Positions 30,157 to 34,188 of a DNA stretch of 37,167 nt are shown piece after piece. The DNA lies in IMG/VR virus record IMGVR_UViG_3300020213_000064, positions 1-37,167 of that record; one strand, given 5' to 3'. The translations under genes and the position numbers were made by a program. Each line of letters opens with the position of its first letter. Within the stretch, counting starts at the first letter, position 1. The notes beneath the pieces were generated by a model. The model was given only the letters and a program-made list of their open reading frames with translations. It was not told the origin of the DNA and did not search any database. Source of the DNA: a virus.

Positions 30157-30175
30157 GGAGATAAGGCCTATCTCC
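30157..30175. terminator. Weak hairpin between convergent moron and terL
   Basis: A perfect 7-bp stem (GGAGATA 30157-30163 with TATCTCC 30169-30175, 5-base loop) overlaps the terL stop codon and lies 20 bases after the moron stop. There is no U-run on either strand, so it may only slow transcription or act with Rho. Confidence 0.35.
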
Positions 30176-31694
30176 GCTTCGGAGGCCTCAGTCCCATCAT
30201 CTTCCTGAACTTGTCGCTGCGCTCCATCGTCTTTTCCTCGAGGTAATATTCTTCGTATGGCCTGCCAAATTCAGCGGGCACCGGGTTGGTTCTCGTGTCG
30301 ATATTGCGTATCAGATACATCAGAGCGGCGAATGCATCGAAGTGACCATAGGTGTCGGAGCGGTCGAAGTCCGTTTTTCGGTCGTTCCAGACGCCGAACT
30401 TAAGGCACCCTATCGTTTGACGGCACCTGGGATGCACCACCACGCGGCGGTTCTTCACCCATACGCGCACCTCGTTTACCATTTCCTCCCTGTATCCCTT
30501 GTCGGTAGCCTCGAAGTAGAGTCCCTCTAGTTTTGATAGGTCGGAGATTAAAAGCAGGTCCACGTCAGAGACGCGACGAATCCTAAAGTGGTGATTTGGT
30601 GCCACCATACGCCACCGCGTGCGGCCTTGGTCCACGGTTTTTTCTTTCTCCCAGCTTACGCCAAATCGGTCGGTCTCTCGGTCGCGGATTGCCTGGCCCA
30701 GGGACTCGGTGGTCATCTGCGTGCCGTTCATTACCACTTCATCGTGGATGAAGAGCTTCGCCTGCTTAAAGTCGTAATGAGCAAGCAGGCAGACGGTCAA
30801 ATCCCTGACGCCGATGTCGAGAGCATCGTATTTTTGATAGAACGTGAAGTAATCGTCCGTCTTAAATTCGTGGACCTGCCCGTGCTGCTCCCATTCGCCG
30901 CATAACGCAAAGTCGGGATCGACAAGATCGAGGGCCAGGGCCTCACGTTTCCACGCCACTGAGCCTGGTCCCTCAAGCTCCACCATAAGGGCCTGGATGG
31001 ATACCTCGTCAAAGCCTCCTCGGTAAATGTCGAAGTGGGCGTATCGTTCGTCCATCTCAGCTTTCGTGCTCATCGTCGTGAATTCATGGGCGGGAGTTTT
31101 CGCCGGGCTCGAGGCGACAATCATCTTCCTCCCTTTGACCACCTTACCGTCTTGGTTCATCAGCTGAGGCATCCCGACGTCTTGCACTACGTATTTGAGC
31201 CGATTCACCGTGCCACCTTCGTCGACGATGAATAGGTCGCACTCATCGCCGCGCAAAGCATCGGGATTGGAGTTATTGACGCCGTGAATAAATATCTCTG
31301 ATCCGGTAGAGGGGAATAGCCAGCGGCCACGCTCGAAGACGGGGCGCACCTCGGGAGGTGAGTCGGCGATAATCTTCATCATGATCGGCTCAATCAGAAT
31401 GCGGAGATTTTCTTGATGAGGCGCGGCAAATCGTACCTTTGCATTTCGTTTGCGCAGGCACACCATCACGGCGATGAGGCAAAGCAGGTAAGTTTTGCCG
31501 ATTCGTCGTGCGCACTTGAGCACGAAGAGCCAGCCAGGGGAGTCCCATAGTCGATCCCAGACTTCGCGCTGGAAGGGCTTCATCTTGTATCGCAGGTCCC
31601 CCTCTCGCCACCTATCGGCGACAAAGGCCGCTCGCAGGGCCTGGGCCTCAGTCTTGGTCAATAATGGGGGAGGAGATGAGCTTGAGGTGTTCAA
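30168..31694 (-). CDS. terL: Terminase large subunit
   Basis: This 508-residue protein is the DNA-packaging motor and nuclease. The ATPase part shows an atypical Walker A (CARRIGKT, 61-68), Walker B DLFIVDE (153-159) and a coupling motif IVASSPAKT (192-200). The nuclease part has ALDIG with D293 and a C-terminal GHFDAFAALMYL stretch with the last acidic residue. The ORF begins at TTG 31694 inside terS, without a visible ribosome site, so translation is probably coupled and the exact start is uncertain; TTG 31658 is an alternative. Adjacent small terminase and downstream portal complete the packaging set. Confidence 0.9.
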   Translation of the reverse strand: MNTSSSSPPPLLTKTEAQALRAAFVADRWREGDLRYKMKPFQREVWDRLWDSPGWLFVLKCARRIGKTYLLCLIAVMVCLRKRNAKVRFAAPHQENLRILIEPIMMKIIADSPPEVRPVFERGRWLFPSTGSEIFIHGVNNSNPDALRGDECDLFIVDEGGTVNRLKYVVQDVGMPQLMNQDGKVVKGRKMIVASSPAKTPAHEFTTMSTKAEMDERYAHFDIYRGGFDEVSIQALMVELEGPGSVAWKREALALDLVDPDFALCGEWEQHGQVHEFKTDDYFTFYQKYDALDIGVRDLTVCLLAHYDFKQAKLFIHDEVVMNGTQMTTESLGQAIRDRETDRFGVSWEKEKTVDQGRTRWRMVAPNHHFRIRRVSDVDLLLISDLSKLEGLYFEATDKGYREEMVNEVRVWVKNRRVVVHPRCRQTIGCLKFGVWNDRKTDFDRSDTYGHFDAFAALMYLIRNIDTRTNPVPAEFGRPYEEYYLEEKTMERSDKFRKMMGLRPPKRR

Positions 31695-32126: not shown

Positions 32127-32744
32127 ATGAAAGCACTCACGGTTACATGCGACACGAAACTGAAGATTCCACTCGATGAACTTATCGAGCTCCAGGGTAA
32201 CTTCAAAGAGATGACGAAGGCGCGGTACGAGAAGTTCAAAAAGCTTATTCTCAAGCGAGGCATTTGGTTTGCGAGCCACGTTTGGAAGGAACTGACGATA
32301 GAAAACGGAGTTAGCTTAGTAAAGTGGTGGATCATAGACGGGCACGGTCGCAAGCGCCTGCTTACGAAGATGAGGGCAGAGGGATACGCCATACCGGATA
32401 TTCCATGCGTTGAGATTTCAGCGGCAAGCCTCAAAGAGGCGAAAGAGGCGGTGCTTGCGGCATCGAGCAACTTTCAGCGAGCGACTAAAGACGGGCTTTA
32501 CGAATTCATCTCTGGAGCAAGCATATCGTTTGACGAACTAGACGCGTTTGAGATTCCAGATATTGACCTGCCTGATTTCAAGGACGAGTTCGGGCCTGAC
32601 GCGAGCAAGGAGCGCGTAGAGTTTGACGCCGAAATCGGTCAGGCTCAGTTCCTTGTCATCGTAAATTGCGCGGACGAGGGAGCGCAGAGGGAGCTATTTG
32701 AGAAACTTTCTGGAGAGGGATGGACATGCAAAATTACCGGGTAG
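32127..32744 (+). CDS. ParB-like nuclease-domain protein
   Basis: This 205-residue protein has the ParB/sulfiredoxin-fold pattern: an N-terminal strand with IPLDELIELQGN, then VKWWIIDGHGRKRLL (71-77 is the DGHGRKR box) and IPCVEISAASLKEAKEA. A helical segment and an acidic IPDIDLPDF stretch follow. ParB-like domains in phages often couple nucleotide hydrolysis or DNA binding to modification enzymes. The ATG at 32127 immediately follows the promoter start point. The 3' end overlaps the ABC gene by 19 to 25 bases, so the two are coupled. Confidence 0.8.
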   Translation: MKALTVTCDTKLKIPLDELIELQGNFKEMTKARYEKFKKLILKRGIWFASHVWKELTIENGVSLVKWWIIDGHGRKRLLTKMRAEGYAIPDIPCVEISAASLKEAKEAVLAASSNFQRATKDGLYEFISGASISFDELDAFEIPDIDLPDFKDEFGPDASKERVEFDAEIGQAQFLVIVNCADEGAQRELFEKLSGEGWTCKITG

Positions 32745-33412
32745 AACTTGAGAGCGTAATCCCAAAGACGTACCGCACGCAAAAGGCCGTCGACAGCGTG
32801 AACTTGGACGTGATGAAGAAAAGCAGGCACGTGCTGGAAGTCGAAGCCGACTTGACCTCGCCCTATAACGTCGGCCTCATCGTCGGTGCATCGGGCAGCG
32901 GCAAGACCACGCTTGCACGTCAGATATTCGGCGAGGATTGCACGCGTGACGTGCTTGTCGGTGAGACTCCTGTGATCGAGCAGTTCCCGAAGGGAATGAA
33001 GTACGACGCCTGCGTCGAAGCACTGACTGGCGTTGGCCTCACGTCGATTCCGTGCTGGGTGAGGCCAGCGCACACTCTATCGAATGGGCAGAGGGCAAGA
33101 GCCGAGGCCGCGCTTAAGACCGCGACTGGAAGCGACGTCGTAGTGTTGGATGAATGGACGTCGACGGTGGACCGCACAATAGCGCAGATAATGTGCGCGA
33201 AGATCTCGAAGCAGTATAGGAAGGGAGCCAGACGAATCGTTTTGCTCAGCTGTCATTACGACGTCATCCCCTGGCTTCAGCCTGATTGGATCATTGACTG
33301 CAACACGGGCTCATACGAAAAAAAAAAGAGCACCGGAGGGAGCCGCTTGAATTTACCGTCAGAGAATGTTCAAGCCGCGCTTGGAGGTATTTTAGCAAGT
33401 ATCATTATCTGA
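32726..33412 (+). CDS. ABC-type ATPase (stand-alone form; frameshifts into GNAT)
   Basis: This 228-residue protein carries a complete ABC ATPase set: Walker A GASGSGKTT (54-62), signature LSNGQRARAE (118-127), Walker B VVVLDEWTS (138-146) and a switch histidine in LSCHYD (H177). There are no membrane segments, so it is a soluble ABC ATPase, not a transporter. The ATG at 32726 fits the GGAGAGGG site better than ATG 32720. After about residue 198 the frame passes an A10 run; without a shift it adds about 27 low-similarity residues. Closest general type: ABC ATPases fused to an acetyltransferase domain (COG2401-like). Confidence 0.85.
   Translation: MQNYRVELESVIPKTYRTQKAVDSVNLDVMKKSRHVLEVEADLTSPYNVGLIVGASGSGKTTLARQIFGEDCTRDVLVGETPVIEQFPKGMKYDACVEALTGVGLTSIPCWVRPAHTLSNGQRARAEAALKTATGSDVVVLDEWTSTVDRTIAQIMCAKISKQYRKGARRIVLLSCHYDVIPWLQPDWIIDCNTGSYEKKKSTGGSRLNLPSENVQAALGGILASIII
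33318..33328 (+). other. A10 run with -1 slippery heptamer (programmed frameshift candidate)
   Basis: Ten consecutive A (33318-33327) are followed by G. In the ABC frame the codons are GAA AAA AAA AAG; the heptamer A-AAA-AAG at 33322-33328 is in exact -1 phase, the dnaX-type slippery sequence. A -1 slip joins ABC residue 201 to the open GNAT frame. Slippage of RNA polymerase on the run is an alternative, and an assembly indel cannot be excluded from one sequence. Confidence 0.7.
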
Positions 33413-33858
33413 GTGAGAACCTGCCCTTTGGGAAGGTTTACGCGTTTGGCCTATACCACGGCGAGAATCAGATCGGCTTCAGCTGCTTTGCGCATTACAC
33501 CGTAGCCGACCGAACGGAGGTGCACTCGAACCGCGTGGTGGTGCATCCGGATTACATAGGCATCGGCCTGGGCATCCGGCTCGCTACGGAGGCTTCCAGG
33601 ATAATGAGTGCACGCGGGTTCAGAGTGAAGGCGAAATTCACGTCCCCTGCAATGCTCAAACAGCGACTGGGCCACCCTGACTGGATCTATTTGGGCTCGA
33701 AGCTCGTGACGTCGAAGAGCCAGGCGGGCAATTTCGGGCGCACCATTCGCAGCTCGTCAGGCCCGGAGGCGGCAGTACGGCGAAATGAGGCGAAACTATG
33801 GGGAGTGAAATACCATTGGTTTCAGTTCAGATCAGCCCTGGAGAAAGCTCACGACTGA
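33328..33858 (+). CDS. GNAT acyltransferase domain, reached by -1 frameshift
   Basis: This 176-residue frame lies directly after the ABC ATPase in the -1 frame. Its N-terminal half contains SSRAWRYFSKYHYLSENLP and YAFGLYHGENQIGFSCF, and the second half a GNAT acetyl-CoA loop (NRVVVHPDYIGIGLGIRL), then a SARGFRVKAKFTSP strand and LGHPDWIYLG. The first usual start codon in this frame is GTG 33520, which would delete the YHYL half, so the domain is only complete as a fusion with the ATPase (about 377 residues). Substrate unknown; DNA base or protein acylation is inferred. Confidence 0.75.
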   Translation, partial: EHRREPLEFTVRECSSRAWRYFSKYHYLSENLPFGKVYAFGLYHGENQIGFSCFAHYTVADRTEVHSNRVVVHPDYIGIGLGIRLATEASRIMSARGFRVKAKFTSPAMLKQRLGHPDWIYLGSKLVTSKSQAGNFGRTIRSSSGPEAAVRRNEAKLWGVKYHWFQFRSALEKAHD

Positions 33859-34188
33859 GGCCCGGGGCAGCGGGCCTATAGCGCGCTCTATCTCGATGCC
33901 GAAGCACCAGGGCGTCGTGATGAAGACGGACGCGGCCAGGCGGGCAGGGCGGCGTCGATAGCGGATGCGTCGGACGCGGCACAAGAGATAGCGCCCGCTC
34001 CGATAGTGAAGCACTAGATAGCGCGGCGAGGGACCGGCGAAGAGGGCGTGATAGTGACGCGCGTCACGCCTATACTCGACCGTCTTGGTGCCCGCGGCTA
34101 TCAGGTCGAAGTACGGCCTGGTGATAGTCAGTGTGATACTGAGAGGCCGCTCCCTGGGAGCGACCGCCTGGCGTCTGGCGCGGTGCAT
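33832..34188 (-). CDS. ASCH-domain protein
   Basis: This 118-residue protein has the ASCH/PUA-like pattern: ITLTITRPYFDLIAAGTK followed by TVEYR, then beta strands with YLVLHYRSGRYLLCRVRRI and a terminal WCFGIEIERAIG. ASCH proteins bind or process RNA or modified nucleosides; a few act as amidohydrolases on N4-acetylcytidine. The exact start is uncertain, since ATG 34188 has no clear ribosome site; a start after the AGGGAG at about 34148 would trim about 15 residues. It converges on the GNAT gene, overlapping its 3' end by 27 bases. Confidence 0.7.
   Translation of the reverse strand: MHRARRQAVAPRERPLSITLTITRPYFDLIAAGTKTVEYRRDARHYHALFAGPSPRYLVLHYRSGRYLLCRVRRIRYRRRPARLAASVFITTPWCFGIEIERAIGPLPRASVVSFLQG

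Follow-up and report, generated by a model that had tools for sequence, protein, structure and literature searches.

A viral gene encoding an ABC ATPase and a GNAT acetyltransferase in two overlapping frames is probably recoded, judging from the sequences compared here, by RNA polymerase slippage on a run of ten adenines, with the ribosome as an alternative or contributor, and this would set the ratio of ATPase alone to ATPase-GNAT fusion. The run recurs at the same junction in many relatives, and both frames are under purifying selection. We infer the slippage, its efficiency and the role of the ratio in an ABC dimer.

Two frames meeting at an A10 run

The window is the whole 37,167-base IMG/VR virus record (IMGVR_UViG_3300020213_000064). 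Its relevant features are:

30168-31694, minus strand: terminase large subunit, placing packaging genes beside the cassette
32127-32744, plus strand: ParB/Srx-like gene (phrog_498, phrog_1033), directly upstream
32726-33412, plus strand: ABC-ATPase frame (0 frame), 228 aa, with Walker A GASGSGKT, signature LSNGQ, Walker B/D-loop LDEWTSTVDR and H-loop SCHYD
33298-33858, plus strand: GNAT acetyltransferase frame (-1), with no usable start before GTG 33520
33318-33327, plus strand: A10 run, the predicted slip site, where one nucleotide added to the transcript or a -1 shift of the ribosome would give a 377-aa fusion
33322-33328, plus strand: A_AAA_AAG heptamer in 0-frame phase, a possible ribosomal -1 site
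33342-33378, plus strand: inverted repeat GCCGCTTGAA/TTCAAGCCGC, beginning 14 nt past A10, a weak candidate stimulator
33410-33412, plus strand: 0-frame TGA ending the ATPase-only product, overlapping the Leu codon of the GNAT YHYL motif
33832-34188, minus strand: neighbouring ASCH-domain gene, tail-to-tail with the GNAT frame

The ATPase and GNAT frames are in exact -1 phase across A10, with the 0-frame codons GAA AAA AAA AAG AGC over the run, and coordinates and codons agree with an earlier note that had described this overlap and its A-AAA-AAG. The -1 frame is open from 33298 to 33858 and bounded on its 5' side by a TGA at 33295-33297. The shift point, which the same note had placed between the stops at 33295 and 33410, is thus confined between 33298 and 33410 for ribosome or polymerase alike, and the window alone does not separate them. 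With the ATPase start taken at M32726 (the N-terminus of the homologues is MQNY.V.L.S), the predicted products have 228 aa in the 0 frame and 377 aa with the -1 frame, the lengths already proposed. No ATG, GTG or TTG occurs in the GNAT frame between its upstream stop and the end of YHYL; our start-codon scan bears out the earlier claim that the YHYL half is encoded before any start. The first one, GTG 33520, would remove the conserved W..F.KYHYL. One inserted nucleotide at A10 opens, at the sequence level, the full GNAT frame and a product beyond standard decoding.

A10 is the only A/T run of at least 9 in the 37,167-base record, where 0.22 nine-mer matches are expected per shuffle. Neither a 5' stem (z +0.5) nor a convincing 3' stem (z -0.65, a value that many shuffles equal) accompanies it, so the context marks nothing beyond the run. 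The inverted repeat lies about 13 nt past the heptamer, compared with the 5-9 nt spacing of the -1 frameshift criterion, and no Shine-Dalgarno-like motif is visible just 5' of the slip site; both observations weigh somewhat against ribosomal frameshifting in the window. An Rfam search gave no match.

Profile searches of the window identified ABC_tran (1.3e-8) and Acetyltransf_1 (1.6e-4), and PHROG 11143, a single 357-aa family, matches both frames head to tail (ATPase frame 2-196, 1.5e-53; GNAT frame 191-326, 5.2e-13). The predicted fold of the GNAT part is indeed GNAT (pLDDT 85.6).

The junction in relatives

Relatives were collected by tblastn and pattern scans over phage, IMG/VR and genome loci, the ATPase frame of each locus being set by the H-loop motif and the GNAT frame by F..YHYL. 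Since some scans selected for runs, frequencies are taken only from an unbiased set of 113 unique IMG/VR junctions, obtained by scans blind to runs. In this set, 71 junctions lack a long run and all 71 are single-frame fusions, while the other 42 carry an A or T run of 9-12, in phase in 25 and out of phase in 17. Out-of-phase junctions are therefore found in 0 of 71 run-free versus 17 of 42 run copies (p 4e-9); our P values take the loci as independent though they are related, with a tree as guard. The maximum run at the junction is bimodal (6 or less, or 9-12), and the lengths of the run class pile up at 9-10; no junction has a run of 7, and the sole case of 8 is a non-homologue. Altogether, 91 A/T runs of at least 9 were counted in 169 junctions, a total that includes the run-selected scans, whereas the flanking DNA of the same loci holds 78 in 1.31 Mb, or 0.0037 expected per junction. 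A runs and T runs interchange among relatives, giving Lys or Phe at one place, which indicates that the nucleotide run and not the peptide is conserved. Among out-of-phase runs, 35 are at -1 and 3 at +1 (p 7e-8), and this lean to -1 means that one inserted nucleotide restores the fusion.

On a tree of 153 loci, run presence must have changed at least 12 times, and run type and phase at least 18 times each; because the tree was built quickly and some of its branches are long, these counts are indicative. The earlier note had regarded an unbroken homologue without a slippery run as contrary to frameshifting. Some relatives are exactly this, and others carry the run in phase, out of phase or replaced by T, a distribution that points to repeated gain or loss of slip sites and not to refutation. 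In one clade of A9/-1 loci (L195, L197, L201, L236, L242, L248), L219 carries an in-phase A10, a recent one-base switch of design. The near-identical contigs L027 and L028 are both A10/-1, and a single C-to-T change in L027 creates a 0-frame TAA immediately 5' of the run.

Homopolymers are error-prone and the window is a single record, which could suggest a sequencing or assembly error, or a decaying pseudogene. The same -1 offset, however, is common to many unrelated records and GenBank phages, including the nearest tree neighbour of the window (L118, also A10/-1), and none of the 71 run-free copies is out of phase. Moreover, purifying selection acts on both frames in the -1 pairs close enough to measure; dN/dS is 0.09-0.37 for the GNAT frames of the -1 run class wherever dS can be measured. 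We consider error or decay extremely improbable.

Long homopolymers are also mutable, and both phase states exist among relatives (L219 within its clade, for example), as expected if gain or loss of A/T in the DNA toggled the fusion between genomes. Such phase variation is nevertheless very unlikely, as run length is the same in 69 of 69 near-identical record pairs, 27 of them with differing flanks, out-of-phase copies lean to -1 instead of being evenly split, and in-phase copies have tailored stops and stems (see below). The GNAT domain could also be made separately, through an internal start or translational coupling at the ATPase stop. An own start is annotated in GenBank for the P335, Javan and MismyG phages, and in some loci an ATG lies immediately 5' of the motif; but 21 of 44 out-of-phase loci, window included, have no ATG, GTG or TTG able to give the whole GNAT with its conserved N-terminal segment, and many relatives are single-frame fusions. 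We therefore give separate synthesis hardly any credence. Of the frameshift reading in the earlier note, the -1 junction itself stands as real, given the same state in many unrelated phages, the stable run lengths and the selection on GNAT; a ribosomal slip at A-AAA-AAG is not established, in view of the 9-10 nt lengths, the T runs in place of A and the lack of stems.

Predicted slip-site designs and likely mechanism

Three designs can be recognized. In the first, to which the window belongs, the run is out of phase, nearly always -1, and one added nucleotide leads to the fusion. Around these -1 runs there is no stem on the 5' side (mean z -0.5 for A, -0.2 for T) or on the 3' side (-0.16 for A, +0.40 for T).

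In the second, the run is in phase and the +1-nt frame has a stop within 2 codons in 39 of 53 copies, against 9 of 72 run-free copies (p 2e-12), so that one inserted nucleotide gives the ATPase alone. A perfect stem ends 0-2 nt 5' of these runs, with mean lengths of 4.55 and 4.27 bp versus 1.93 and 1.83 in shuffled sequences, and among stems of at least 5 bp, 11 distinct arm pairs occur at A runs and 9 at T runs. A stem in this position would be melted by a ribosome standing on the run but extruded by RNA polymerase. We considered a reading of stem plus T10 in these relatives as an intrinsic terminator, but it fails for relatives with stem plus A10; termination is thus not the shared function, although partial termination may occur at T10 copies. 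The 0-frame stop at YHYL was likewise examined as a selected feature; since this frame has a stop at the same place in in-phase and run-free copies as well, the stop simply follows from the codons of the motif. A point against the two-product reading is that many relatives give the fusion alone and do without a separate ATPase, which is thus not always required.

The third design has no long run but is -1, mostly with a 3' stem, and comprises Streptococcus, Lactococcus and Oenococcus phages, Bathyarchaeota and two metagenome-assembled bacteria (L276, L299). Streptococcus and Lactococcus phages have G_GUU_UUU followed by a 3' stem (z -1.9 to -4.1 in 5 of 6), and the Oenococcus phage copy has no clear stem. 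In Bathyarchaeota, A_AAA_AAG (A7G) is followed by 6-7 nt and a GC stem, and some copies carry A9 instead of A7G. The arms of this stem are nearly invariant, with no compensatory pairs among 13 sequences, and its support therefore comes from conservation and energy, not covariation. The MAG RUG10674 (L299:1589-2932, 1341-2561) has A_AAA_UUU in -1 phase and then a stem of -47.8 kcal/mol over 105 nt. A slippery site with a 3' stem is typical of ribosomal -1 frameshifting, which does look right as a prediction for the Streptococcus/Lactococcus phages and the A7 Bathyarchaeota copies.

The Candidatus Bathyarchaeota MAGs (L297, L302, L309, L313, L321, L326, L328-L330, L339, L343, L352 and others) contain ParB-like plus ABC/GNAT cassettes, in some MAGs several copies each, -1 out of phase with A7G and GC stem or with A9. 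These cassettes are candidates for archaeal -1 frameshifting and possibly lie on a mobile element.

A_AAA_AAG is also a known ribosomal slip heptamer. Programmed -1 ribosomal frameshifting of the E. coli dnaX type would give the same two products in the window, where the X_XXY_YYZ heptamer is in exact 0-frame phase; -1 is the dominant offset, and run-free relatives (Streptococcus/Lactococcus, Bathyarchaeota, RUG10674) combine slip site and 3' stem. On the other hand, the run class measures 9-10 nt and not 7-8, T runs take the place of A runs, the -1 run class lacks the 3' stem, and the stem of in-phase relatives is on the wrong side of the run for a ribosome. It remains a tentative explanation that we find rather unlikely. 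The 9-nt length threshold, the A/T exchange and the missing 3' stems lead us to place RNA polymerase slippage ahead of it for the window. In bacteria, transcription is known to slip on A/T runs of 9, and dnaX of Thermus exploits such slippage (PMC5009743, PMC1088944).

Under polymerase slippage, standard decoding would end at 33410 and give the 228-aa ATPase alone, whereas a fraction of transcripts would gain one extra A at A10 and the slipped message would join the GNAT domain to the ATPase in a 377-aa protein; a ribosomal -1 slip at A_AAA_AAG may replace or supplement this step. As ABC ATPases work as dimers, the two forms from one gene would set the number of acyltransferase domains per ATPase assembly, in the way that dnaX fixes its ratio of tau to gamma. 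Relatives in phages and archaea re-evolve slip sites at the junction, so the two-protein output seems selected, that is, the virus seems selected to make two proteins from one gene. On balance, we also suspect that the junction was recoded many times by different mechanisms, through plain A/T-run slippage to the fusion, through stem-loop-assisted slippage of in-phase copies to the short form and, in Firmicute phages and Bathyarchaeota, through -1 shifts of the ribosome at sites with a 3' stem, and that the two-product output, not the mechanism, is what is conserved.

Predicted function and comparison with known systems

The gene product is a probable DNA-decorating enzyme. An ABC-ATPase-coupled GNAT, for which phage pT24 is named, has been predicted to transfer an acyl group of uncharacterised nature to a base in DNA (PMC7824862, citing its ref. 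136), and the ASCH protein YqfB of E. coli hydrolyses N4-acylcytosines (PMC6972931). In most annotated relatives the order ParB-like plus ABC(-GNAT) recurs, terminase genes often adjoin ABC-GNAT, and 17 of the 169 loci (the window and 16 others) have an ASCH-like ORF close to the junction. Bases of the phage DNA are the most likely target of acylation by the complex, a substrate inferred from its ParB-like and ASCH neighbours, the published prediction and a weak match to the Mom family (PF25680); base acylation with ASCH as reader or eraser is a lead. Foldseek searches with the GNAT model gave generic GNATs as best matches, such as PaiA and RimI, and PADLOC matched the ATPase part (mad3/mad8 and similar) but not GNAT.

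Fused ABC-GNAT copies (L355, L358, L007) are followed by a formyltransferase gene in Porphyromonas phage EM3 and in Pseudomonas phage Komp_PAO1_1, and by an aspartate decarboxylase gene in phage Jace; these neighbours may supply acyl donors. The copy of Tenacibaculum phage pT24 (L360:1480-2652) is a single frame with an in-frame stop inside GNAT near 2242, and is annotated as two ABC genes.

Control of the fusion by slippage had been thought new. Our literature search, mostly outside subscription papers, turned up papers on the family and on slippage mechanisms, but none that connects them; the enzyme family is known, and the recoding of ABC-GNAT is unreported in the literature found. GeneTack 'ABC transporter' frame-transition clusters, which their authors attribute to translational coupling (PMC3711429), may hold the ABC-GNAT family. 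If our reading is true, a single protein is listed in the annotations of such phages as two, an 'ABC transporter' and a 'hypothetical protein'; an enzyme of the phage-host DNA-modification conflict joins the short list of genes with a product ratio set by recoding, many natural slip sites (A/T, with and without stem-loops, in both phases) become available in one family for comparing polymerase and ribosome, and candidate -1 frameshift genes are supplied in archaea.

The predicted DNA-acylating ABC-GNAT has the same domains, and we found pT24 as an ABC homologue, but the sections of PMC7824862 on this enzyme describe no frame break or recoding. The Mom family shares the GNAT fold and is weakly matched by 4 of 40 relatives (best E 0.0024), whereas the window GNAT is unmatched at E 0.01. 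E. coli dnaX and phage tail-chaperone -1 frameshifting share the X_XXY_YYZ heptamer, and slip site plus 3' stem with the Firmicute-phage and Bathyarchaeota relatives; the gene is different, and the window shows neither a convincing 3' stem nor a Shine-Dalgarno on the upstream side. The Roseiflexus IS, as outlined in PMC5009743 (its ref. 99), has a stem-loop touching the 5' side of the slip site, a likeness restricted to in-phase relatives and not found in the window; there one C is lost from T5C5, while the runs here are A10/T10. Also comparable is the slippage of Thermus thermophilus dnaX (PMC5009743, PMC1088944), with an A/T run of 9 in the coding region, two products with a common N-terminus of which the short form is the ATPase, and nearby other-frame stops, seen here in the in-phase relatives. 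The present gene differs from it in being a viral ABC-GNAT, in having A or T as the run in different relatives, and in that the run of the window is out of phase, so that slippage would lead to the long form.
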